DNA of 64,000 nucleotides from Methanomicrobiales archaeon (GTDB lineage: Archaea > Halobacteriota > Methanomicrobia > Methanomicrobiales > JACTUA01), in contig JACTUA010000001.1 of assembly GCA_015660865.1 (NCBI GenBank), forward strand, positions 62,001 to 126,000, written 5' to 3'. Of the stretch, positions 2,994 to 31,966 are shown piece after piece (within the stretch, counting starts at the first letter, position 1; the number at the start of each line of letters is the position of its first letter). A model generated the notes under the pieces. It saw nothing but the letters and a program-made list of their open reading frames with translations, searched no databases and was not told the DNA's origin. A program made the position numbers and the translations under genes.

Positions 2994-3929
2994 TTATGGT
3001 CCGATCTCCAGGTCAGGGACCCCGATCCCCATCCGTTCCGCCACCAGCAGGTAATATGCGGCAAGGCCTTTCCACTCACCCCATGCACCGGCGATACGCC
3101 GTGCTTCGGCGGTGTCGATCCTGGACGCCTTCGAGTAATACCGGGAGATCGACCTGCGGATACCGAGATCGTCAGCGGGAAGGGCGTCGAGGCGCGAGAG
3201 CCCCCTGAGGGCCGCGAGCTCGGCCGTCCAGACACCCACACCCCTCAGGGCGGAGAACTCCCGGACGATGTTCTCGGTGTTCTCTGCAGGTCCGTGGGTC
3301 TCAAGGTCCAGCGTCCCCTCCCGGATCTGGCGGGCGATCCCGAGGATATACTCCGCCTTCTTCAGGGAGAGCCCGCAGGCCCTGAGTTCATCAGGGGAGG
3401 CATCCGCAAGGTGCCCGGGTGTCGGGAAGGCATAATATTCCCTGCCTTCCCATTCGAGGGTGTCCCCGAAGGTGCGGGTAACCCTCTTCTCGATGCTGTG
3501 GGCAGCGGTGAGGGAGATCTGCTGCTCGATGATGGAGTCGACGAGGGCCTCGAAGACCGTCATGGTCCTCGGGGGCTTCAGTCCCCGGAGGCGCCGGGCG
3601 ATGGCAGACATGACAGGATCGTCCTTCACGGCTGTGATGAAAGGGGAGAGATCCAGGTCGAGGTTGAAGATCCTTGCAATTATCTCTCCCGCTTCCCGGG
3701 CCATCTCTCCGGCGACAGATCCGGGTTCGAGGCGGAGGTGTACCTCCGGATGGTCTCCCGACCCCCCGCTTGTCACCTCGGCGAAAAGGAGAGCCCCGGA
3801 GACCCGTGTGACCTGCCGGAAGATGCCGTCGGAGTAGGAGCGAATCTGCGGGTCGCCACCTGCGAAGATGGATGCCGAGAGGTCGAAATTGAAGGGGGGG
3901 ACCGGGTTCAGGACGAGGGTCCCATCCAT
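2994..3929 (-). CDS. AlkA-type DNA glycosylase (HhH-GPD superfamily)
   Basis: Probable base-excision repair enzyme that removes alkylated (or oxidised) bases. The 311-residue protein has an N-terminal AlkA/OGG-like beta domain (about residues 1-80) and an HhH-GPD domain. Helix-hairpin-helix LRGVGVWTAELAALRGL is followed by ALPADDLGIRRSI, whose Asp matches the AlkA catalytic Asp position. VDSIIEQQISLTAAHSI is the usual helix before it. No C-terminal Fe-S Cys cluster is seen. A start at 3989, overlapping the upstream stop as ATGA, would add 20 residues and cannot be excluded; 3929 has a purine-rich AGGAAAGGGG upstream and gives the better domain fit. Confidence 0.85.
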   Translation of the reverse strand: MDGTLVLNPVPPFNFDLSASIFAGGDPQIRSYSDGIFRQVTRVSGALLFAEVTSGGSGDHPEVHLRLEPGSVAGEMAREAGEIIARIFNLDLDLSPFITAVKDDPVMSAIARRLRGLKPPRTMTVFEALVDSIIEQQISLTAAHSIEKRVTRTFGDTLEWEGREYYAFPTPGHLADASPDELRACGLSLKKAEYILGIARQIREGTLDLETHGPAENTENIVREFSALRGVGVWTAELAALRGLSRLDALPADDLGIRRSISRYYSKASRIDTAEARRIAGAWGEWKGLAAYYLLVAERMGIGVPDLEIGP

Positions 3930-3985
3930 CGCCCCTTTCCTGTGGCGGGCACGAGGACGGGTGGTTCCCGATCCTCCCGCTTCTG

Positions 3986-5203
3986 TCATACACCCGATGC
4001 CATAAGAAGCCCTGCGAACCATGCCACCATGTTGTGGAGGCCTGTCGAGATGACGACGACCGGATCGATCCCGAGGACAGGGAAGAGGAAGATGAAGTAG
4101 AGGAGCGTGCCCAGCATGCTCCCGATGTTCGCGACTGCCGCGATCAGGACCACCTTGAAGAGCGGGATCCGGGCCATATCCGTGAGGGTCTCGGCCTCGT
4201 AGATCTTCCGGAAGTCCGTGACCGCGGGGCTCCGCACCTTTGCCTCGACGGCGGCCGCGATCCACCCGACGTGGAGAAGGGGATTCAGGGACGTCATCCA
4301 GGCGACCCCGAAGCAGGTGAGGGCCGAGTACGGGTGGCCCCCCGCAGCGAGGGTGAAGGCCCCCGCGAGCACGCCGTGGATGACGACCCAGAAGAGGAAC
4401 GCGTAGAGGAGGGTGTTCAGGCCCACCCCCGAGAAGCCGATTGCCGCCAGGAGGAGGAGGAAGAGGGCGGTAACGGCGAAACCGAAGACAGTCCCCCAAG
4501 GGAAGCTCTTCGGCTGGCGGGTCAGGGACTCAAACGGCGGGAGGGTCTCGGGTGCATCGAGGTATCGCTTGATACCGTTCACGTGCCCCGCCCCGACGAC
4601 TGCGAGGATCCTTCCTGCGTCCTGCTCTTTCAGCCGGACCAGGTTATGGGCGATGAAGGCATCACGCTCGTCGATGAGCGACCGGGCACCTTCGGGTGAG
4701 AACTTCCTGAACTCCTCCATCACCATGTCGATGACCGACTGGTCCTTCATCGATTCGATATCGACCTTCTCCAGCTCGTCCACCTCGGCGATGGAGATGA
4801 CGAGGGCGAAGAACATCTTAATCTTCCCGATGACCCCGAGGGACTGCCAGAACCGGAGGAGGGTGAGCCGGATGTCCCGGTCCACGAGCGAGACCGGAAG
4901 ACCACGCTGCTCCGCCTCCGCAATCGCGGCCTTCATCTCGGCGCCCGGCTCCACCCCCACGTCAATCCCTATCTTCCGCTGGAGGTAGGAGAGGATCCAC
5001 TGGATCAGGAGCTGGTTGAAGTTCCTGACCTCCAGCACCTCGGCAACGGTGGGCTCCTTCGTATCCTTCCTCATGGCCTGGAAGCGTCCGAGGTCCAGCT
5101 CCACCGCGACGATATTCGGCTGGAACTCGTCGATGGCCTTTTTGACGTCCTCCACGCTCTGCGCCGAGACGTGAGCTGTTCCGACGATACGGATCTCTGA
5201 CAA
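3986..5203 (-). CDS. TraB/PrgY-family membrane protein
   Basis: A 405-residue protein with an N-terminal TraB domain (about residues 1-230: IRIVGTAHVSAQSVEDV, VAVELDLGRFQAM, AVVGAGHVNGIKRYL) and a C-terminal membrane domain with about five hydrophobic helices (from about residue 235). TraB/PrgY proteins are linked to pheromone shutdown in enterococci, and the conserved GTAHVS and GxxH motifs hint at a metallohydrolase fold; the archaeal role is unknown. The start is TTG, preceded by GGTGGGG at good spacing. It may be co-transcribed with the downstream glycosylase. Confidence 0.85.
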   Translation of the reverse strand: MSEIRIVGTAHVSAQSVEDVKKAIDEFQPNIVAVELDLGRFQAMRKDTKEPTVAEVLEVRNFNQLLIQWILSYLQRKIGIDVGVEPGAEMKAAIAEAEQRGLPVSLVDRDIRLTLLRFWQSLGVIGKIKMFFALVISIAEVDELEKVDIESMKDQSVIDMVMEEFRKFSPEGARSLIDERDAFIAHNLVRLKEQDAGRILAVVGAGHVNGIKRYLDAPETLPPFESLTRQPKSFPWGTVFGFAVTALFLLLLAAIGFSGVGLNTLLYAFLFWVVIHGVLAGAFTLAAGGHPYSALTCFGVAWMTSLNPLLHVGWIAAAVEAKVRSPAVTDFRKIYEAETLTDMARIPLFKVVLIAAVANIGSMLGTLLYFIFLFPVLGIDPVVVISTGLHNMVAWFAGLLMASGV

Positions 5204-5283
5204 TGAACCCCACCGGTGATACTTAGCTTAGAAGATGGATGGTGATGGGATTTATAGGCGACGGGGGTGAGGAAGGAATGAAT

Positions 5284-7083
5284 CTAAATTTGATCTAGCA
5301 AAACTTTGAAAATAACTTTTTCCTTTTCATCAGGAATTCGTGTATCGTACTCCCTGATTTCTTTTGAAAAAATGCTTGCATAATCTTTTTTAATTTCTTT
5401 CAAAGAGACAACTGCGAGATTAGAGACTTCCTTCGCCTGCGAGTTTTTTATCTCATTTCGAGAGATATAGAGATAGATACTAATTAATGATCTGATGAAT
5501 TGTTGAATAGCACCTTTAAGATCGTTACTTCGATCCATAGAGAACGTAAATGCGCATAAATTCTTAAAAAATCTGATAATCGACGAAGTTGTTTCTGATA
5601 ACTCATTATCAATTGACCTCAATAATATATGCTCCAATTCCTCAATAGTAATTTTTAGGTTATACTCGAGTCCCAAATCTGCGAAAGCTAATCCTAATCC
5701 AACCAAAGCATCTGCTGCTTCGCGAGAACCTCTGTCAAAACCATTTATTTTATCGCCTAGATGAGCCGCGGAATAGCCCAATGCTCCGATTTCATCAATA
5801 CTAATATTTGAATTATTATTCTTCTCTCGGTTTAGTCGTAGCACAGCAATATGTTTTAAAGAAATTATTGGATCGCAAATTGCAAACCTGTCTTCACTAA
5901 GCCTCGTCTTATCAGCGAATTCTATGATATTTTCCCCGATCTTAAATATTAAAGTTGCAACATAGTCTCTCATATCCTCTGATTCAGAAGACCAAGTTAT
6001 CTCATCTATCCTCTCTAATTTGTTAATTGAGGAAGATGTGACATTTCGCATCCTTTTCTCAGCCGCTTCAGAACCGAGAAGAGAAAGAGCTTCCTCAACA
6101 AAGTAGATGATATCTTTGGTTTTCCTTTCGACTGAATACTCTCCAATTGTTGTTAAAGCGTGGATAGATGTAATAGCGGACCAATTATCCATCCTTTCGA
6201 TTCCCTTCTTGCCAAAATGTTCCAAGACATCTATTATGAGTTTTCCTGAATCCTTGTCGTATTTATCAAGGGTTAGCAAACCGCTCCGTTTTAGATTTTC
6301 ACAAAAACGACTAGAAATATTGTTTTTAAGATTTGTTTCTTTATTACCAACCATTTCTTCATCGATTCTTTGAGAGAGTATTTTTAAACCACTTTTTAAC
6401 GTGAAAATATCGTAATTCAATATCGAATCATGGATTATGTCGAATACAGGCTGTAATGGATCATCCAAATACCAATCGTCATAATCACGTTCATCAGCGA
6501 AAGAATCAAACTTGATATTTCGTGTTAATTTCGTGAGAATTGTATCAATTCTCAAAAGATTAATCGTATTCGAAAAATAAGGAGGGAGAATAACGAAGGT
6601 GAAAACACCTAGTAAATATCCTTGAGCAATCAGAAAACCCAAATATTCTTTAATGAAGGGATCTTCTTTAATTTCGCTTAAGATTAAAAATCCATATATG
6701 AGTGAGAAAACATAGAAAATTAATAATACCCACATATCAGGGTCTTTCTTAAAAACCTCGATAACTCTAAATGAATATTTCGAGGCTGTGATCTGAACCG
6801 CAACTAGTGTCAATGAAATAACAATTGAGAGAATTGCGGCTTGAGATTGAACCAAGGCACTTAAAAAATATCGCGCGGTGTCTAGATCAGCATTGTAAAA
6901 ATTAAATTTCATGAATATAAGATTCCCAAAGATCAAGGTGATTAATAAAATTCCAAAATAAATAAGAATTCTACTGATTCGCGGATGAATTCCTCCCCAT
7001 TTGTGAATCTTTTGTCTGAAAACAATGGGCTTTTGTCTCTTTGGCTGAATTTGTTCTATTGTTGGTAATTCTTGATCAGCCAT
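5284..7083 (-). CDS. AT-rich DUF2254-like predicted membrane protein
   Basis: A 599-residue protein. Four hydrophobic segments are clear near residues 38-58, 72-98, 113-133 and 144-166; the rest is a long soluble region of mixed helices. The second and third helices with the intervening LVAVQITASKYSFRVIEVF resemble the DUF2254 membrane domain. No function is known to me. Base composition is very different from its surroundings: AAA, ATT and TTA codons dominate, against GC-ending codons in all flanking genes, and the flanks are AT-rich too. This points to recent horizontal transfer. No transposase, integrase or target repeat is visible at its borders. Confidence 0.75.
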   Translation of the reverse strand: MADQELPTIEQIQPKRQKPIVFRQKIHKWGGIHPRISRILIYFGILLITLIFGNLIFMKFNFYNADLDTARYFLSALVQSQAAILSIVISLTLVAVQITASKYSFRVIEVFKKDPDMWVLLIFYVFSLIYGFLILSEIKEDPFIKEYLGFLIAQGYLLGVFTFVILPPYFSNTINLLRIDTILTKLTRNIKFDSFADERDYDDWYLDDPLQPVFDIIHDSILNYDIFTLKSGLKILSQRIDEEMVGNKETNLKNNISSRFCENLKRSGLLTLDKYDKDSGKLIIDVLEHFGKKGIERMDNWSAITSIHALTTIGEYSVERKTKDIIYFVEEALSLLGSEAAEKRMRNVTSSSINKLERIDEITWSSESEDMRDYVATLIFKIGENIIEFADKTRLSEDRFAICDPIISLKHIAVLRLNREKNNNSNISIDEIGALGYSAAHLGDKINGFDRGSREAADALVGLGLAFADLGLEYNLKITIEELEHILLRSIDNELSETTSSIIRFFKNLCAFTFSMDRSNDLKGAIQQFIRSLISIYLYISRNEIKNSQAKEVSNLAVVSLKEIKKDYASIFSKEIREYDTRIPDEKEKVIFKVLLDQI

Positions 7084-7166
7084 ATACGAATATTGATTGG
7101 TCTCTCTAGAAAAACTTGTTTAAGGTCAGTTATTCTCAATATCACTTTTCATTCGATATTTTTTTC

Positions 7167-8168
7167 TCAAAACCACCGGTCCAGCGTCTTCTGCCCGGCA
7201 GTCAGCTTCACCTTGTCCAGCGCCGAGTTCACCCGTTCCTTTGAGAAATCATACCCGTCGCAGAGCATGGTCCACACCCCGTCGGCATTCACCGGTTTCC
7301 AGGTGAGCTGATAATCTTCCGTAACGGGCGGCTTCAGGAAGAACTCAATCACCGGCTTCGGGTCGAAGCCGGGTAATTTCTCGCGGAGCGTCTCCTCATA
7401 CTTTCCGTCGCTCACGATCTGGATCGCCTTCTTCGGGCCGATCCCCCTGATTCCTTCGTTGAAATCCGTCCCCACGAGGACCCCTATCTCGATGAGCTGC
7501 TCCCTCGTCAGGTGCAGGCCGTCGAGGACATCCTTGAGGAGCAACTTCTCCGGGGTCACCGTGATGGTCCTCCCCCGCACCTTCCGCTTGCCAGAGACCG
7601 TGAGGTTCCGGACAAGAACAGGGGCCCCGAAGAGGAGGAGGTCATAGTCCTGTGAGACCGCGTAGGTGGCGTTCCCCTTCGCCACCATGTAGGCGGCCTG
7701 CGCCTCTCCCTCGGACGGGGCCTGGACCCAGGGGATGCCGAGGAGGCCCAGCAGCTCCTTGCTGGAGGAGACGACGAACTCGTCCACCCGGGAGGAGGCC
7801 TGGGCATGCTTCCGGGCCTCCGCCACCTCGCCCTTCGCGAGCGCCGCCTGCCACTTTACCCCCGCCGCGAGGCGGATCTCCTTCCTCTCCGCGATGGTCC
7901 CGGCCTTGAACTCGGGCGGGACGCCATCGAAGACAAAGATCGGGCGGATGCCGAGCTCGAGGAAGTTGAGTACCCGGAAGAGGATGCCGGAGAGGTGGGA
8001 GGTGACCCGCCCCCGGGAGTCCATGAGGGGCGTCCCGTCGGGCTGCCGGATGATGGAGAGGAACTGGTAAAGGGCGTTGTGGGCGTCCACCGCTGCAACC
8101 CCGGTGAGGGTCTCCCAGCCCACCGTCTTTTTGTACTCCAGGAGGATATCACGGATATCGACGCCCAC
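7167..8168 (-). CDS. fen: Flap endonuclease 1
   Basis: Structure-specific nuclease that removes 5' flaps during Okazaki fragment maturation and repair. The 333-residue protein shows the N-terminal domain (MGVDIRDIL, AAVDAHNALYQFL, FVFDGVPPEFK), the internal nuclease domain (QAPSEGEAQAAYM, AVSQDYDLLLFGAP), a helix-hairpin-helix region GTDFNEGIRGIGPKKA and a C-terminal PCNA-binding box QKTLDRWF. The catalytic carboxylates in these motifs are all present. It reads toward the AT-rich gene and ends 83 bases before it. Confidence 0.97.
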   Translation of the reverse strand: MGVDIRDILLEYKKTVGWETLTGVAAVDAHNALYQFLSIIRQPDGTPLMDSRGRVTSHLSGILFRVLNFLELGIRPIFVFDGVPPEFKAGTIAERKEIRLAAGVKWQAALAKGEVAEARKHAQASSRVDEFVVSSSKELLGLLGIPWVQAPSEGEAQAAYMVAKGNATYAVSQDYDLLLFGAPVLVRNLTVSGKRKVRGRTITVTPEKLLLKDVLDGLHLTREQLIEIGVLVGTDFNEGIRGIGPKKAIQIVSDGKYEETLREKLPGFDPKPVIEFFLKPPVTEDYQLTWKPVNADGVWTMLCDGYDFSKERVNSALDKVKLTAGQKTLDRWF

Positions 8169-8581: not shown

Positions 8582-9499
8582 ATGGACCTGAAGAACTACC
8601 TCCCCCTGGTCGCCATGCCCGGGATGCTCGTTGTCGTCGAGATCATCGCCCTCTTCCTCTCCCGGCCCCTCCAGGAAGCAGGGGTGTCCGCCTTACCCTA
8701 CTCCCCCGACAACCCGCTGAACGTGGTGGTCTTCCTCGCCATGCTCCTCGTCTTCACAATCTTCATCCTCGTCCTCATCCGGTTCGGGGTGAAGTCCCTC
8801 CTCTCCGCGATCATCGCCCTCTCCCTCTTCTTCACCTTTTACTACATCTTCGCATCCCTCGCCCTCGCCCTGGCCGGGGAGACCGACCTCGCGGGGCTCG
8901 CGACCATCGTGCTCTCTATCGGGGCCACCGTGGTTCTCTACAAGTACCCGGAATGGTACGTCATCGATACCCTGGGCATCCTCCTCTGCGCGGGGGTCGC
9001 GTCCATCTTCGGGATCGCCATCGGGATCATCCCGGCCATCCTCCTCCTCGTCCTCCTCGCCGCGTACGACTATATCTCGGTCTATCGCACGAAGCACATG
9101 ATCACCCTCGCCGAGGGGGTGCTCTCCCTGAAGGCGCCCATCCTCTTCGTCATCCCCAAGCGCAGGGATTACTCCTTCATAAAAGAGGGTCTTGCCATCA
9201 AGGGAGAGGACGGGGAGCCGAAGGAACGGGGTGCCTTTATCATCGGGATGGGGGACATGATCATGCCGACCATTCTCGTCGTCTCGGCGAATGTCTTCCT
9301 CAGGGTCCCGGGCTGGGCCTTCTCGCCCCCTGCGATCGGGGCGATCGCGGGCTCCGTTGTCGGCCTCGCCGTCCTCCTGACCGCCGTGAAGCAGGGGAAG
9401 CCACAGGCGGGCCTCCCGCCCCTGAACGCAGGTACCATCACCGGCTTTCTGATCGGTTGCGCCCTCGCCGGGGCGTGGGGCTGGGTCCCTTTATTTTGA
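8582..9499 (+). CDS. Presenilin-like intramembrane aspartyl protease (PSH, family A22)
   Basis: A 305-residue polytopic protein with about nine hydrophobic helices. The two catalytic aspartates are seen as YD at residue 163 (LAAYDYISVY) and GxGD at residue 225 (IIGMGDMIMP). The C-terminal PAL signature appears as PPL (residues 279-281), a variant worth noting. Family members cleave helices within the membrane; a homologue from Methanoculleus marisnigri has a known structure, which supports the suggested taxonomic order. Natural archaeal substrates are not established. The last 62 bases overlap the convergent NOG1 gene. Confidence 0.93.
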   Translation: MDLKNYLPLVAMPGMLVVVEIIALFLSRPLQEAGVSALPYSPDNPLNVVVFLAMLLVFTIFILVLIRFGVKSLLSAIIALSLFFTFYYIFASLALALAGETDLAGLATIVLSIGATVVLYKYPEWYVIDTLGILLCAGVASIFGIAIGIIPAILLLVLLAAYDYISVYRTKHMITLAEGVLSLKAPILFVIPKRRDYSFIKEGLAIKGEDGEPKERGAFIIGMGDMIMPTILVVSANVFLRVPGWAFSPPAIGAIAGSVVGLAVLLTAVKQGKPQAGLPPLNAGTITGFLIGCALAGAWGWVPLF

Positions 9500-12621: not shown

Positions 12622-13602
12622 TTAAGCCGGTTTGAGGCCTGCCTGCTCGACCATGAAGGTCGCCTCGCCCTCGGGGAGGTATGGGCTGTCGACGAGCCGG
12701 GCTATCCGCTTCCCACCCTTGCTCTTCCTGAGGTAGATCCGGAACGTCGCCGTATGGCCGACGATATTCCCTCCGATGGGCTTCGTCGGGTCGCCGAAGA
12801 AGACCGCCGGGTTGGAGAGGACCTGGTTCGTCACGAGGCCGATGGCATTGTGCTCGTCCAGGAGCCTGAAGAGATCATGCATGTGCCGGTTCAGCTTCTG
12901 CTGCCGGGGTGCGAGGGTCCCGCGGCCGGCGTACTCGGCCCTGAAGTGGGCGGTGAGGGAGTCAACGATGAAGAGCCGCACCGGCTTCTCGCTCTCCCGG
13001 AGGTCGTTCGCGAGCTCCCGGGCATTGTCGATCATGAGCATCTGGTGATCGGAGGTGTGTGCCCGGGCGACATGGATGTGATCGAGGAACTCCTGGGCCG
13101 GGGGAATGTCCATGCCGAGGCCCGCGACCATCTGCTCGATCCTCTCGGGCCTGAAGGTGTTCTCGGTATCGATGAAGACGCAGCTTCCGGCGAGGCCCCC
13201 CGTCTCCTCGGGGAGCTGGACGTTCACCGCCATCTGGTGGACGATCTGGCTCTTCCCTGATCCGAACTCGCCATAGAGCTCGGTGATGGCCTGGGTCTCG
13301 AAGCCGCCGCCGAGGAGGGCGTCGAGATCCGGGACAAAGGTCCTCAGCTTCTTCACGTTCTTCCTCTGCTCGAGGATTGCCGTCCCTGTCTTGAAGGAGC
13401 CCACCACGGCACGATCTTTCGCGGCCTTGAGGAGCTTCTTTGCCGTTGCCTCGCTGATCTCGGCCGCCTCTGCAAGTTCATTCGGCGATGCGGTGGCGAT
13501 ACTCTCAACAGTTGTGTACCCTGCCTCTCTCAGCTTGTCGGCCGTCGTTGGCCCGACACCCGGCAGATCTTCAATATCATTCACGTTTCCAGTCAATACC
13601 AT
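12622..13602 (-). CDS. radA: DNA repair and recombination protein RadA
   Basis: Archaeal RecA/Rad51 recombinase that forms filaments on single-stranded DNA and drives strand exchange. The 326-residue protein has an N-terminal helix-hairpin-helix domain ([17 protein letters not shown]), a Walker [14 protein letters not shown], a Walker [10 protein letters not shown] and the loop region [12 protein letters not shown]. Length and architecture are normal. GGGGGAG lies just before the ATG and a TATA box about 45 bases upstream. Confidence 0.98.
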
Positions 13603-13643
13603 CTCCCCCTGGGGAGCCTGTTACACTTCCCCATTCCCCGGGA

Positions 13644-13653
13644 CCCTTTATAG
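13644..13653 (-). promoter_or_regulatory. radA promoter TATA box
   Basis: On the minus strand this reads CTATAAAGGG, about 42-51 bases before the radA start, predicting a leader of about 20 bases with a GGGGGAG ribosome-binding site. Confidence 0.6.
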
Positions 13654-13676
13654 AGGTGAGGGCGGGCGCCGTGAAA

Positions 13677-13727
13677 GTGATATCCCCAGGACCCGGATCC
13701 CATCATGTCCCCACGGGCCCGGATGCC
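13677..13727 (-). repeat. Two tandem ~25-bp GGATCC-type intergenic repeat units
   Basis: On the minus strand, two adjacent units read GGCATCCGGGCCCGTGGGG and GGGATCCGGGTCCTGGGG, each followed by a short tail, with a period of 25-26 bases. The same unit occurs near 41.58 kb and four times near 50.9 kb. It lies between RPA and radA; function unknown. Confidence 0.6.
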
Positions 13728-13750
13728 TTCTTCCCCCCCGGACCCGTTCC

Positions 13751-15043
13751 TCACGGACACAGCCCTGCCCTGAACCGGGCGAGGCGATCCCTCGCCCCGG
13801 CCGGATCCGCTTCCCGCACCTCCACCTCTGCGGGGAGGATCGTCCGTCTCACGCGTCTCCCCCGTACCCGGACCAGCCGGCCCATGGGGAGGTCCCCGCC
13901 GACGGGGTGGCAATCCCCGGCGACCTCGAGGCAGGCACCCGTGGCCGTGGGGATGACAATGCCTTCGAGATCCACCGGTTCAGCCTCCCCGCCCGGGAGG
14001 ACCACAGCGCTTCCCCGCCCTGCATGGAGCTCGAGCCCCCCGTCCCGGCCCCTGCGGACCTGGACCCGGTACAGGGTGACGGCATCCCCCTCGGCGATGT
14101 CGAGAGCTGCCTTCTCGCCCCAGAGGACGAGGGCCACCTCCCCGCTCCCGTCTGACAGGGTAAGGTTCCGCACCGAGGAAGGCTGCCCTTTGCGGGTGGT
14201 GAAGGACCGGAGGGGGCCGGCGGATCGGACCACCCCATTCACCGACGTAAACCCCGAGTCCGGGACCTTCCCGATACCGGTTGTGGGAACCTCGATATCC
14301 CTCTCCAGGGGGATCATCTTCCCCTTCTCATCCAGCTGGTATTCATCACCATCGCCCTTCGAGGATCGGGTGGCACCGAGGATCCGCACGGAAGATCCGG
14401 CCTCGATCCCCTCGAGGAGCTCAGGCGCCCAGCAGACGAGCCGCGATGTCTCCCCCTGGTTCCCGATGACCGCCTCCACCATCCTGCCTTCGGATCCATC
14501 CCTCCGGGTGAAGGTCCGGACCTTCCCGATCTCGATGACCCTGGCCTCGAGCTCTGCCACCGGTTCGGGAGGGAGGAACCGTCGGTCAGGGGACATGGCG
14601 CAGCTGATCTCGCAGGCCGCCTTTCGGAAGGCCATGGCGCTCACCTCCCCCTTCAACCGGGGCGATGGCTTTGCGATGACCTCGAGGACCTCCCCGACAT
14701 CGACCTCCCCCGCTGCCTGGGCCTTCTCGTCCCAGAGGACTACCCGCACCTGCCCGGTCTCGTCCCCGAGGAGTATGTCGGCTACGAGGCCGGTGCTCCC
14801 GTCGCCCTTCTGGAACTCGTGTGGGGATGTGGTGGAGACGACCTTCCCGAAGAAGCAGGAGAGGCTGCTCCCTGTTCCGACGTCCCGGATCTTTACGTGG
14901 GCCCTCCCGAGGTCGCGGACGACGATCATCGCCGCGGTAGGTTCGTCGTAGAGATCCCCGCTCGTTTCCATCACCCCCTCTACCCTGCGGTCGAACTCCT
15001 CCCGGGGAAGCAGGTCGTCCACGAGGGCGTAGTGGAAGCTCAT
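13751..15043 (-). CDS. Replication protein A-like single-stranded DNA-binding protein (multiple OB folds)
   Basis: A 430-residue protein with three recognisable OB folds (about residues 60-140, 165-245 and 255-345), each carrying the pattern of a strand with GS/GE followed by LVCWAPELL or VALVLWGEKA. This matches euryarchaeal RPA-like proteins that coat single-stranded DNA. No C-terminal zinc finger of the CxxC type is visible. The N-terminal part LLPREEFDRRVEGVME is a typical helical leader. It is upstream of radA on the same strand, consistent with joint work in recombination. Confidence 0.85.
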   Translation of the reverse strand: MSFHYALVDDLLPREEFDRRVEGVMETSGDLYDEPTAAMIVVRDLGRAHVKIRDVGTGSSLSCFFGKVVSTTSPHEFQKGDGSTGLVADILLGDETGQVRVVLWDEKAQAAGEVDVGEVLEVIAKPSPRLKGEVSAMAFRKAACEISCAMSPDRRFLPPEPVAELEARVIEIGKVRTFTRRDGSEGRMVEAVIGNQGETSRLVCWAPELLEGIEAGSSVRILGATRSSKGDGDEYQLDEKGKMIPLERDIEVPTTGIGKVPDSGFTSVNGVVRSAGPLRSFTTRKGQPSSVRNLTLSDGSGEVALVLWGEKAALDIAEGDAVTLYRVQVRRGRDGGLELHAGRGSAVVLPGGEAEPVDLEGIVIPTATGACLEVAGDCHPVGGDLPMGRLVRVRGRRVRRTILPAEVEVREADPAGARDRLARFRAGLCP

Positions 15044-15058
15044 GCCGGGTCCCGGGGA

Positions 15059-16357
15059 TCAGCGGCGGGCCTGCCAGGGGGGTCGCTCCGTGGCGGCGAT
15101 GAGATCGTCCATCGTCTCTCCCCTTCGCATGAGGGCGGCATCCGAACCCCTCACGAGAACCTCTGCGCACCTGGGCCGCCCGTTGTACTGCGAGGACATG
15201 GCAAACCCATAGGCGCCGGTATCGAGAACCACGATGAGGTCTCCTCTCGCGATAGCGGGCAGGTCGCGGTCCTCTGCAAGCAGGTCCCCGGTCTCGCAGA
15301 TGGGCCCTGCAATGGTGTACCGGTGAGCCGGCGCCTGGTCTGCCTTGTTTGCCACCACCACCCCGTGGTAGGCGCCGTACATCACCGGCCGGATGAGGAG
15401 GTTGAAGCCGGCATCGACATTTACAAAGCGCCTGTGGGCCTCCTTCACCGAGTTGACCCCTGTGATGAGGATGGTGGAATCTGCGACGATGTACCGCCCG
15501 GGCTCCACCCAGAGTTCCGGCGAGATCCCTGCCTCCTCCACGCCTTCCGTGAAGACCGGTACCACGGCCGAGGCATAGTCGGAGAAAGAGGGTTCGGGGT
15601 CCGTGCCCCGCCTATAGGGGATTCCCAGGCCGCCTCCCAGGTCGATGAAGCGGAGCCTGACCCCGAGGTCGGTGAGGCGGGCGGCGAGATCGATCATCAC
15701 CGAGATCGCCCGTGCAAACGGCTCCACTTCGAGGATCTGCGACCCGATATGGCAGTGGATCCCCGCGGGTCTGACATGCTCGCACCCGAGAGCGGCCCGG
15801 TATGCGGCAAGGATATCACTGGCTGGGATACCGAACTTCGAGGTCCTGAGGCCGGTCGCGATCTTCGGGTGGGTGGGCACCTCGAGGGCTGGGTTCACCC
15901 GGAAGGCGATCTCCACTGTTTCGCCTGCCTCCCCCGCGATCCGGTCGAGCGATTGCAGCTCGTCCAGGGAGTCGACCGAGACCCGGACCCCTTTCTCAAC
16001 GGCGAGGGCGAGATCCGCGGGGCTCTTCGAGGAGCCGTTGAAGAGGAGCCTGTCCGGATCCATTCCGGCCTCGAGGGCGAGGATGAGCTCTCCGGCAGAG
16101 AAGACGTCAGCTCCGGATCCCTCATCTGCAAGGGCTCTCAGGATGGCGGGGTTCCCGTTGGCCTTGGCCGCATAGAGGACCCTCACGCGGTCATAGCGGG
16201 AGGAGAACGCCGCGTGGACCTCGCGGTAGCGGGCGCGGACCCGGTCCTCGTCTGTGACATAGAGGGGTGTCCCGAACCGGGCGGCGAGCGTGACCGTGTC
16301 ATGGCGGCCGATGTGAAGGTGGCCGTTTCGCACCGAGAGGCAAGGCGGCAGGTTCAC
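15059..16357 (-). CDS. lysA: Diaminopimelate decarboxylase
   Basis: PLP enzyme that decarboxylates meso-diaminopimelate to lysine. The 432-residue fold-type III protein shows the PLP Lys in VLYAAKANGNPAILRAL, HCHIGSQI, the glycine-rich phosphate-binding IDLGGGLGIPY, CETGDLLA with the catalytic Cys, and GAYGFAMSSQYNGRPR. The start overlaps the dapL stop in an ATGA. The pair encodes steps of one lysine route. Confidence 0.97.
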   Translation of the reverse strand: MNLPPCLSVRNGHLHIGRHDTVTLAARFGTPLYVTDEDRVRARYREVHAAFSSRYDRVRVLYAAKANGNPAILRALADEGSGADVFSAGELILALEAGMDPDRLLFNGSSKSPADLALAVEKGVRVSVDSLDELQSLDRIAGEAGETVEIAFRVNPALEVPTHPKIATGLRTSKFGIPASDILAAYRAALGCEHVRPAGIHCHIGSQILEVEPFARAISVMIDLAARLTDLGVRLRFIDLGGGLGIPYRRGTDPEPSFSDYASAVVPVFTEGVEEAGISPELWVEPGRYIVADSTILITGVNSVKEAHRRFVNVDAGFNLLIRPVMYGAYHGVVVANKADQAPAHRYTIAGPICETGDLLAEDRDLPAIARGDLIVVLDTGAYGFAMSSQYNGRPRCAEVLVRGSDAALMRRGETMDDLIAATERPPWQARR

Positions 16358-29255: not shown

Positions 29256-30506
29256 TCAGACCTCCCGCGGGTCGGTGATCTCCCCCGTAATCGCCGTCGC
29301 CGCAGCTGTGGCTGGCGAGGCCAGGTAGACCTTTGCATCCGCAGACCCCTGCCTCCCCTTGAAGTTGCGGTTCGAGGTGGAGAGGGAGACCTCGCCTGGC
29401 CCGAGGAGCCCGAAGGCGCCGCCCATGCAGGGGCCACAGCAGGGGGCCTCCACGAGGGCCCCTGCCTCGACGAAGCGTTCGATGTACCCCGCACGAAGGG
29501 CCTTCAGGTACTCCGCACGGGAAGCCGGAATGATGATGACCCTCAGCCCGTCGGAGAACTTCCGCTTCCCGAGGACCTCGGCAACCTCCTTAAGGTCCTC
29601 GAACCGGCCGTTCGTGCAGGAGCCGATGAACACCTGGTCTACGCGAGTCCCCGCAACCTCCCCGACGTCCACCACATGGTCCACGTTATGAGGGACTGCC
29701 ACCTGGGGAGCAAGGTCCGAGGCATCATAGGATCGCTCCTCGAGATATGCCGCATCGGGGTCTGCGGCAAGTTCGAAGGGCTCCATTCTCCTTCTCCCCC
29801 TCAGGTAAGCCCAGGTGATCCTGTCAGGCGGGACAATCCCTGCCTTCGCCCCCATCTCGACGGCCATGTTGCAGCAGGTCATCCTCCCCGCCATCCCCAT
29901 GCCTTCCATGGTTTCACCCGTGAACTCGAGAGCCTTATAGGTGGCCCCGTCGGCACCGATATCGCCGGCGATGGAGAGGATGAGATCCTTGGGACCCACC
30001 CGATTCGGGAAGGTGCCGTTCACCTCAACCCGGATGGTCCCGGGCACCCGGAAGTAGAGGGCACCGAACTTGAGGACGAAACCCATATCCGTGGAGCCGA
30101 TGCCTGTGGCGAACGCCCCCGTCGCCCCATACATGCAGGTGTGGGAGTCAGCCCCGACTACGATCTCGCCCGGGGCGGCAAGCCCCCGTTCCTCGACGAC
30201 CTGGTGGCAGACGCCCTCGGTCAGGTCGAGGTTCCGGATCCCCTGCTCCTCGGCGAACATCCGCATGAAGATGTGGTTCTGGGCCGCGGGGATGGAGTCG
30301 GCCGGCACCTGGTGGTCGAAGAGCATGATCACCTTCCCGGGGTCAAAGACCCTCTTCCCGTCCATCTCCCGGAACTTCTGAATGGCCAGGGGGCCGGTGA
30401 TGTCATGGATCATGGCCGCGTCAACCGGTGCCATGACCACCTCTCCTGTAGCGACCTCCCGCCTGCACCCGCGGGAGAAGATCTTCTCGACGATGGTGGC
30501 TCCCAT
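29256..30506 (-). CDS. leuC: 3-isopropylmalate/homoaconitate dehydratase large subunit
   Basis: A 416-residue aconitase-family subunit with a [4Fe-4S] cluster. Cluster cysteines are in [13 protein letters not shown] and [36 protein letters not shown] is the other signature. The start [13 protein letters not shown] at 30506 matches family N-termini; upstream in-frame codons to 30629 are not convincing. It heads a leuC-leuD-leuB operon with very tight spacing. The leader is about 100 bases, long enough for control sequences. Confidence 0.92.
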
Positions 30507-30628
30507 GTACGAATCCCAGAAATAATGGATGGGGATAGGTATTGTAGTTTCGGGGCGGTCCGCCTTCCTGATGGTGGTGCTGCCCCTTTGATTACCGATA
30601 ACATAATTAGACCGTATTTTGGACGACA

Positions 30629-30640
30629 CTTTTATTTATA
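30629..30640 (-). promoter_or_regulatory. leuCDB promoter TATA box
   Basis: On the minus strand TATAAATAAAAG, the best TATA match in the gap, giving a transcript start near 30610 and a leader of about 100 bases before leuC. Confidence 0.6.
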
Positions 30641-30659
30641 CAGGAAGCCAATGTTGGAT

Positions 30660-30682
30660 AAGTTGTCAAGCCTTGACAACTT
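30660..30682. promoter_or_regulatory. Perfect 10-bp inverted repeat, probable operator
   Basis: AAGTTGTCAA (30660-30669), centre GCC, then TTGACAACTT (30673-30682). It lies 20 bases upstream of the leu TATA box and just before TAAATTA (30685-30691), the likely TATA of the plus-strand toxin-antitoxin pair. Autorepression by the antitoxin is the simplest reading; a leu regulator is the alternative. Confidence 0.65.
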
Positions 30683-30725
30683 GTAAATTAAAGCGAGCCG
30701 GATCAAAAAAGGAAGGAAATAAGAT

Positions 30726-30962
30726 ATGCAGAAAGTGACCGCAGGTGAGGAGACCGCGAACAAGAGGGTTGCACTGACACCGAGTACATGGGAAGCCCTC
30801 TCTAATCTGCGTCGCCCTGGTCAAACATTTGATCAGACAGTCGCAGAATTGATCGGCGAGCGTCAACGATTACAGCTAATCACGGATCTTGATGCCATTG
30901 ATGCTACTGAAACAATCATTCCGTGGGATCAGGCGAAGCAGGAGCTTGGTACCACGGAGTGA
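30726..30962 (+). CDS. Antitoxin of a RelE/ParE-type pair
   Basis: A 78-residue protein: NKRVALTPSTWEALSNLRRPGQTFDQTVAELI resembles the short archaeal antitoxins with a ribbon-helix-helix-like start, and the C-terminal part (IDATETIIPWDQAKQELGTT) would wrap the toxin. Base composition is clearly lower in GC than the neighbours, which fits a mobile module. The stop overlaps the toxin start. A perfect palindrome lies 44 bases upstream. Confidence 0.75.
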   Translation: MQKVTAGEETANKRVALTPSTWEALSNLRRPGQTFDQTVAELIGERQRLQLITDLDAIDATETIIPWDQAKQELGTTE

Positions 30963-31234
30963 ATCTTTTGCATTTGAAGATAACTCAACGTGCCAAAAAC
31001 TTTCTTGCTGGCCTTCATGAAAAGGATCGTCGCATCGTAGTCGAACACATCGATCGTCTCGCTAATCATCCGCATGCACATGGGGACATCAAACGTCTCA
31101 ATACCCCCAAGGAACGCTACCGGATGCATGTGTCTTACCGTTACACCGTATTCTTCTACCCTGACGGGAAGGATATCGTTGTCAACGAGATAATGACCAC
31201 CGAACAGGCTCATAAGAGGTACGGTAGGATATAG
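30959..31234 (+). CDS. RelE/ParE-family toxin
   Basis: A 91-residue protein with the RelE-like fold pattern: LKITQRAKNFLAGLHEKDRRIVVEHIDRLANHPHAHGDIKRL, then KERYRMHVSYRYTVFFYPDGKDIVVNEIMTTEQAHKRYGRI. Family members cleave mRNA at the ribosome or poison gyrase. The GTG at 30959 overlaps the antitoxin TGA; a TTG at 30968, 8 bases after GGAG, is equally possible. GC content is low like that of its partner. Confidence 0.8.
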   Translation: MNLLHLKITQRAKNFLAGLHEKDRRIVVEHIDRLANHPHAHGDIKRLNTPKERYRMHVSYRYTVFFYPDGKDIVVNEIMTTEQAHKRYGRI

Positions 31235-31428
31235 AGTCCTGATGAGTGGACGCCTCGGAGCAAATGGACGATAATCAGCTTACCTTTTTTCCGCTTCTTC
31301 GGCGGCCCCTCGCGGATGACCTCCTTCATCCTCTCAACGAACCGGCTGATAGTCCCCAGCCGCTCGAAGAGGGAGTAGAGGTCATCGTCGGTTCCCCCCT
31401 CACGGCCGCTCCCTGGACCGTTTCGCCC
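31210..31428 (-). pseudogene. Possible remnant of a small gene beside the toxin-antitoxin pair
   Basis: On the minus strand a frame without stops contains DDDLYSLFERLGTISRFVE, then ERMKEVIREGPPKKRKKGK, which looks like real protein with GC-ending codons. There is no start codon in frame (an in-frame TGA lies at 31429-31431), and its 3' part runs antisense into the low-GC toxin gene. I read it as the remains of a small gene cut by arrival of the toxin-antitoxin module. It may also be chance. Confidence 0.25.
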
Positions 31429-31966
31429 TCACCACAAGGAGATCCTCCCCTTCTACCCGGTTCCTTCTCACAACCCCGGCAAAGAACCCGGCATCCCGGA
31501 GGAGACCGAGAACCTCTTCGACACCGGTTATCTCCGATATGACGAGGAGGAGTCTCCCGCCGGGTGCAAGGATCCGGGGGAGATCCGATAGAAGCCTCCT
31601 GATGACGTCCCGGCCTCCTTCACCCCCGTCGAGCGCCTCCTCGAGCCAGTCGTCTATCCGCTCCCCGGGCTTCGTGGGGAGGTATGGCGGGTTGAAGAGG
31701 ATGAGGTCAAAGTGTCCCCGGAGGCCGGCGGTCAGGTCCGCCCTGGCAACTCCAACCCCATCGGATGATGCCATCCGGCAGGCGTGGGGGTTCACGTCCG
31801 TTGCGATGATGATGGCAGCCTTTCCCACGAGATGCCGGGCGATATACCCGCTCCCTGTCCCCAGGTCCAGGACCCGGTCGGAGGGTTTCAGCTCGTCGAG
31901 AGCGGCCTCAAGGAGAAGGAGGGTGTCTTCCCGGACAGGATAAACCTGGTCTGGGTCGGCGTCCAT
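31400..31966 (-). CDS. HemK2/Mtq2-like N5-glutamine methyltransferase
   Basis: A 188-residue class I SAM methyltransferase. The SAM motif is VLDLGTGSGYIARHL, with the acidic end of strand 2 in ATDVNPHA, and the catalytic LILFNPPYLP. In archaea and eukaryotes this small HemK form methylates the GGQ glutamine of release factor 1. It lies one base after the ksgA-type gene within the translation operon, which supports a translational role. Confidence 0.82.
   Translation of the reverse strand: MDADPDQVYPVREDTLLLLEAALDELKPSDRVLDLGTGSGYIARHLVGKAAIIIATDVNPHACRMASSDGVGVARADLTAGLRGHFDLILFNPPYLPTKPGERIDDWLEEALDGGEGGRDVIRRLLSDLPRILAPGGRLLLVISEITGVEEVLGLLRDAGFFAGVVRRNRVEGEDLLVVRAKRSRERP

Follow-up and report, generated by a model that had tools for sequence, protein, structure and literature searches.

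The AT-rich gene described here, which interrupts a GC-rich archaeal region between two native genes, is with near certainty a horizontally acquired import. We think that there is about an even chance that it is a stand-alone conflict gene, whose membrane-anchored product belongs to a family used as exchangeable cargo of antiviral operons in its order. What is new is that 23 of the 232 genomes of the order hold a homologue of the gene (profile search, E up to 1e-8, with the window genome counted), some of these homologues lying inside BREX or restriction clusters. Here, the window means the whole stretch of DNA that was analysed, 64,000 nucleotides long; the genome that it comes from has a match to methyl-coenzyme M reductase alpha, which points to a methanogen; its order is probably Methanomicrobiales. 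The features of the locus are collected in Table 1.

Table 1. Features at and around the AT-rich gene (positions within the window)
Feature	Positions	Strand	Description
TraB/PrgY/gumN family gene	3986–5203	-	Native flank
TraB leader	5204–5283	-	GC 0.49; TATA-like box at 5247–5258, minus strand (by eye)
AT-rich gene	5284–7083	-	599 aa: N-tail, four TM helices (DUF2254-like, about 35–177), C-terminal alpha-solenoid in the model (about 190–599)
AT-rich leader	7084–7166	-	83 bp, GC 0.28, between the FEN1 stop and the AT-rich gene
FEN1/XPG-family nuclease gene	7167–8168	-	Native flank; 83% identical in the congener

Composition and origin of the gene

The open reading frame has exactly the limits given in Table 1, starts with ATG and runs for 599 codons with zero internal stops. 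Its GC content is 0.342, against 0.622 across the remaining window. Elsewhere, windows of 1.8 kb have a mean GC of 0.622, a standard deviation of 0.023 and a minimum of 0.561 (those starting at 3500–7200 are omitted from this background), so that the gene lies about 12 standard deviations below. Third codon positions depart in the same direction, with a GC3 of 0.31 vs 0.83–0.89 in six genes of the window (TraB, FEN1, a 104-aa gene, SPP, ArgG, and RadA). The description of an AT-rich gene in a GC-rich region, which had been made in an earlier note, is thus borne out by a check of GC and codon use along the window, run as GC and GC3, and this composition is directly observed. The same note called the flanks AT-rich as well, which holds for the leader on the FEN1 side, whereas the stretch on the other side has a GC of only 0.49 and is, by eye, mostly the leader of TraB.

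Both neighbours, the FEN1-type nuclease gene on one side and the TraB-family gene on the other, are encoded on the same strand as the AT-rich gene. In agreement with the earlier statement that no mobility gene is visible, neither a transposase nor an integrase was seen by eye among the translated ORFs adjoining the gene, and the repeats near it are only short and imperfect. A scan for sigma-70 promoters, whose model is not made for archaea, performed no better than on shuffled sequences, and Rfam gave zero matches in the window. Elsewhere in the window, a 103-aa ORF (30923–31234, plus strand) reads by eye like a RelE/ParE-type toxin and is located in a GC dip (0.505 at 30501–31500).

A recent import had been proposed for the gene, and comparison with related genomes upholds it. 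The window genome holds one copy of the gene, and the search found none in the family's 10 other genomes, whose completeness is 56–99%, with three at 90% or more; this absence is also a direct observation. By comparison, FEN1 was found in 59 and TraB in all of the 61 genomes searched, among which the closest relative of the window protein is only 38% identical. The sole congener (G001, 71% complete) has a gene for an RND/MMPL-like transporter (named by eye) after FEN1, and the end of an RND/MMPL-like gene also stands before its TraB gene, which lies on a different contig. The ends of these two contigs overlap by 108 bp at 93.5%, from which we infer, rather than read through, the order FEN1-transporter-TraB. 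An empty site in a close relative was therefore not encountered, because the gap of the congener is filled by another gene; nor is the AT-rich gene present in all relatives at the same place and with the same composition. Since the congener's gap seems to hold a transporter, the space between FEN1 and TraB resembles a site that varies within the genus, with the AT-rich gene as one filling. As for the transporter itself, its best match in the window genome is 44% identical and is located on another contig, and it is matched at 47–53% in seven of nine other genomes of the family.

A comparison by eye with the congener places the return to native sequence at the FEN1 stop and, at the opposite end, in the TraB leader. 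The import probably starts within 7084–7166, because no resemblance to the congener is seen past the FEN1 stop, and it probably ends at about 5267–5283, because the TraB-adjacent leader with its TATA-like box is common to both genomes (by eye).

Architecture of the protein

The order of domains in the protein is directly supported, with a membrane half followed by a long helical part. The hydropathy profile has four peaks (residues 39–57, 82–100, 117–135, and 148–166), in agreement with the four helices claimed in the earlier note; a fifth call at 87–105 overlaps the second peak. Pfam DUF2254 (PF10011, predicted membrane protein) matches residues 57–190 only, with an E-value of 9.8e-13 and 48.1 bits against a gathering cut-off of 28.8. 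As the matched part covers positions 31–164 of the 368 in the profile, and not the whole profile, the protein is DUF2254-like in its membrane half only. Its likeness to PF10011 resides in the N-terminal transmembrane region, whereas the remainder differs in being a helical repeat of variable length. The previous reading of a DUF2254-like protein with a long soluble domain is hence sustained for the membrane half, which exceeds the Pfam cut-off, and the rest takes the form of a modelled alpha-solenoid.

The counts of lysine plus arginine against aspartate plus glutamate are 6:3 in the N-terminal tail, 0:1 between the first and second helices, 3:2 between the second and third, 1:2 between the third and fourth, and 5:5 after the fourth. 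These charges weakly suggest that both ends of the protein might lie inside. An AlphaFold2 model built from two sequences is all helix, with a mean pLDDT of 72 and a pTM of 0.63, and the transmembrane part of the models has low confidence. The C-terminal part of the model resembles designed helical repeats (best Z of 20.8 over 172 residues) and HEAT/armadillo proteins. The likeness is one of modelled shape, to which helical repeats match easily, and a kinship in sequence is without support. The N-terminal model alone gave nothing better than an E-value of 0.58 against the PDB. Thus, the family, which is sporadic in archaea, probably combines a four-helix N-terminus of DUF2254 type with a HEAT/armadillo-like alpha-solenoid, the latter probably cytosolic.

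No effector domain was found for the window protein in Pfam, NCBIfam, PADLOC or PHROGs. Two further matches are weak and did not enter the interpretation, namely Csx1 of PADLOC (E of 7e-4, 17.7 bits, residues 209–307) and AbaSI (4par, E of 0.0017 over a helical stretch). The four relatives that were scanned (L064, L038, L060, and L065) have zero PADLOC matches at E up to 0.01, and a CitMHS match in L064 was set aside for being under its cut-off.

The accessible part of PMC11184937 reports a knot or slipknot for models of part of the DUF2254 family. No function is given for DUF2254 in the accessible parts of the literature found, and no statement linking it to BREX was found in the literature searched. 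In the available main text of a survey of BREX (PMC12839542), the word transmembrane is absent and the sole occurrence of membrane is in a reference title.

Relatives in BREX and restriction loci

A profile built from seven proteins identifies a homologue in 98 out of 392 genomes across the phylum, the window genome included (E up to 1e-10). Eight of the 10 relatives scanned match Pfam DUF2254, L064 just at the cut-off. The neighbourhoods were read for all 22 other genomes of the order with a homologue (23 loci). In five of these genomes (L061, L062, L063, L064, and L069) the homologue occupies the pglX-pglZ interval of a type I BREX locus. The five copies span four genera of four families, those of L062 and L063 being near-identical and from the same genus. 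All six BREX core genes were named by PADLOC in L064, and similarity to that locus served to assign the other four; the stretch of L063 begins inside brxC. The fit is tight: in L064 and L069 the called start of the homologue falls within the last 20 and 32 bp of pglX, respectively, and its end lies 29 bp before pglZ.

Restriction genes accompany the homologue in three further genomes. In L115 it is the last gene of an hsdR-hsdM-hsdS operon, with a 4-bp overlap with hsdS; in L065 it is convergent with hsdR at a distance of 58 bp; and in L139 a weak homologue and hsdM are separated by about 700 bp. Two of these three hsd-linked copies, those of L115 and L065, have no Pfam DUF2254 match at E up to 0.1 and are kin by the seven-protein profile only (E of 2e-56 and 7e-33). 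About 1.2 kb beyond the homologue of L115 there is also a 900-aa protein (12624–15326, minus strand) with TIR-like (ThsB) and PDC-S60 matches.

Altogether, BREX or hsd genes contain or adjoin the homologue in 8 of the 22 other genomes (five BREX, one hsd operon, and two beside hsd), a linkage of the relatives that is directly observed. Of the 23 homologue loci, 15.5 kb long on average, 8 have BREX or Hsd matches to a set of 26 queries, whereas the same queries match nothing in 20 arbitrary control regions of 20 kb, drawn from 11 of the homologue-bearing genomes, a control that is helpful rather than strict, because part of the queries came from homologue loci. For that reason, the DUF1016-like neighbour in L141 and the GajB-like one in L129 were excluded from this count, their queries having come from these very loci; when they are included, some match is present in 10 of the 23 loci. 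In L038, from Methanophagales, the distance from the homologue is about 1.3 kb to a type II restriction gene and about 2.1 kb to a methylase gene.

The slot between pglX and pglZ is used by other genes as well. BrxL is matched (at least 443 residues, at least 59% identity) in 15 genomes of the order, and both pglX and pglZ are visible in 10 of the BrxL-bearing loci, G509 being left out of this survey. Among these 10, five hold a DUF2254-like gene and four a HEC-01A/B-like pair (L061, L143, and L146 by PADLOC, L147 by similarity). Both occur together in L061, their proteins being unrelated, and in the other three the pair stands without the homologue. A DUF1016-like gene accompanies the homologue in L062 and L063, where the latter also holds a 536-aa ORF that is transposase-like by eye, and the slot of L146 contains a further ORF of 277 aa. 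L144 and L145 have almost no gap between pglX and pglZ. No pglX is visible in L148, L149 or L151, and L150 has an AbiU-like gene before pglZ with no pglX on the contig. Several of these other occupants resemble known or candidate defence genes. In L061 (12466–14760), the pglX tail recurs on the far side of the homologue, and this second copy shares 68% identity with PglX of L064; it might be left over from an insertion and may show how cargo enters a BREX operon. According to the accessible part of PMC11341690, genes stand between pglX and pglZ in about 7,000 of the about 9,000 genomes that have both, and the known defence genes among these include BrxU and PARIS. The relatives described here occupy the same slot as these passengers, whereas they are membrane proteins and the window copy is outside a BREX locus.

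In a tree of 70 sequences, the five BREX-borne copies form a clade with the solitary copy of L130 (support of 100), which comes from a genome without a BrxL match. L130 is a precedent for an orphan copy. The window protein forms a long, deep branch whose placement is unsupported (17 and 45), and in an earlier tree with fewer copies from the order it grouped with non-BREX copies with a local support of 0.897. An origin of the window gene in the BREX-borne clade is supported by neither tree, and its product is only 27–31% identical to the BREX-borne proteins. Directly before another solitary homologue, that of L132, there is a small ORF (8722–9147, plus strand) with the look of a PAAR/DUF4280-type spike (by eye).

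The window itself gave zero matches to the 26 defence query proteins, BREX and Hsd queries included, and BrxL has no match in the window genome; the gene is inside neither a BREX locus nor an hsd operon. The earlier suggestion of a defence or stress gene thus draws its support from the relatives in the order, and nothing in the window shows defence. For the window gene, we put a conflict or defence role at about one half, judging from the contexts of homologous sequences. On contig C6 of the window genome, near 188.9 kb and about 120 kb from the AT-rich gene, a long ORF (L174) with an N6-methylase match reads by eye like a type IIG restriction enzyme.

Possible roles and their meaning

The most serious alternative, which we consider possible yet not favoured, is that the family serves membrane homeostasis or stress (sensing of ions, osmotic state or envelope) and is spread by transfer, with its presence in BREX and hsd operons explained as hitch-hiking in AT-rich accessory islands. 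It is favoured by the loci outside the order, 57 of which were picked from the stronger phylum matches, only some being read gene by gene. No BREX or Hsd gene was found in any of them by a scan with 16 defence query proteins, so that the BREX link is rejected as a general property, and many have conserved, housekeeping-like neighbours. In family f8 of the phylum, such genes often adjoin the homologue, which has up to four matches per genome, some covering the repeat part only. Within the order, the visible neighbourhood is free of BREX and hsd genes in 14 of the 22 other genomes, in several of which the contig is short (3 kb in L133, 6 kb in L129 and L138). Homologues are also generally AT-rich, with a GC below that of the surroundings in 22 of 23 loci of the order (mean difference of 0.153) and in 54 of 57 outside it (0.056). 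However, the close overlaps with pglX and hsdS, like the recurrence of one slot in four genera of four families, exceed what a loose island neighbourhood would give, and the other slot occupants that look like defence genes also speak against hitch-hiking.

It is improbable that the gene is a passenger without selected function in its present host, an AT-rich import heading for decay. Such a fate would suit a solitary gene with alien codon use and no close relative, and a related L130-like copy in genome G454 (L137, 9408–10447) is indeed split into at least two frames, by decay or by sequencing error. Against it, the frame in the window is open over its full length and, in an alignment of seven sequences, its product keeps the strongly conserved positions of the transmembrane region, despite having YSFR where the others have YSPR or YSSR.

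A remnant of a virus or mobile element, to which a single AT-rich gene inserted between two native genes might be ascribed, is very unlikely. No relative was found in 50,697 phage records, nor in viral contigs by two pattern-based scans, the window protein has no PHROG match, and the searches of viruses, phages and plasmids yielded only one distant gene of a halophile plasmid, with no BREX among its annotated neighbours; the lack of a visible integrase and of more than short, imperfect repeats argues in the same sense. Least credible of all is an assembly chimera with a piece of some AT-rich organism, since, even if the genome is split into 9 contigs, the insert is located inside a contig of 567 kb, both flanks continue with native genes in the congener's order, and the switches of composition fall in two intergenic gaps.

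Returning to the reading as a stand-alone conflict gene, the protein would be placed in the membrane with both ends inside. Its solenoid could be an arm that docks to or senses a virus-derived signal or a stalled restriction complex, and the transmembrane domain could be either the effector, by membrane permeabilisation or growth arrest, or an anchor confining the response to the membrane. Any role in the window genome would be one exerted without BREX.

Tentatively, and with somewhat less than an even chance of being right, we propose that proteins combining DUF2254-type helices with an alpha-solenoid are undescribed membrane-bound antiviral accessories of methanogens, which use the BREX slot and the ends of hsd operons, and travel alone as well, the window gene being a stand-alone example. 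Most gene-bearing pglX-pglZ intervals (in about 5,000 of the about 7,000 genomes, according to the accessible part of PMC11341690) match no known defence system and, if the proposal is true, part of these unexplained genes would become testable. DUF2254, studied for its predicted knots as far as the accessible part of that work tells, would gain a first functional hypothesis. In our opinion, a membrane family that recurs in the BREX slot and in an hsd operon, and that is mobile as a single AT-rich gene, is a concrete candidate for a new kind of partner in the DNA-targeting defence of archaea.
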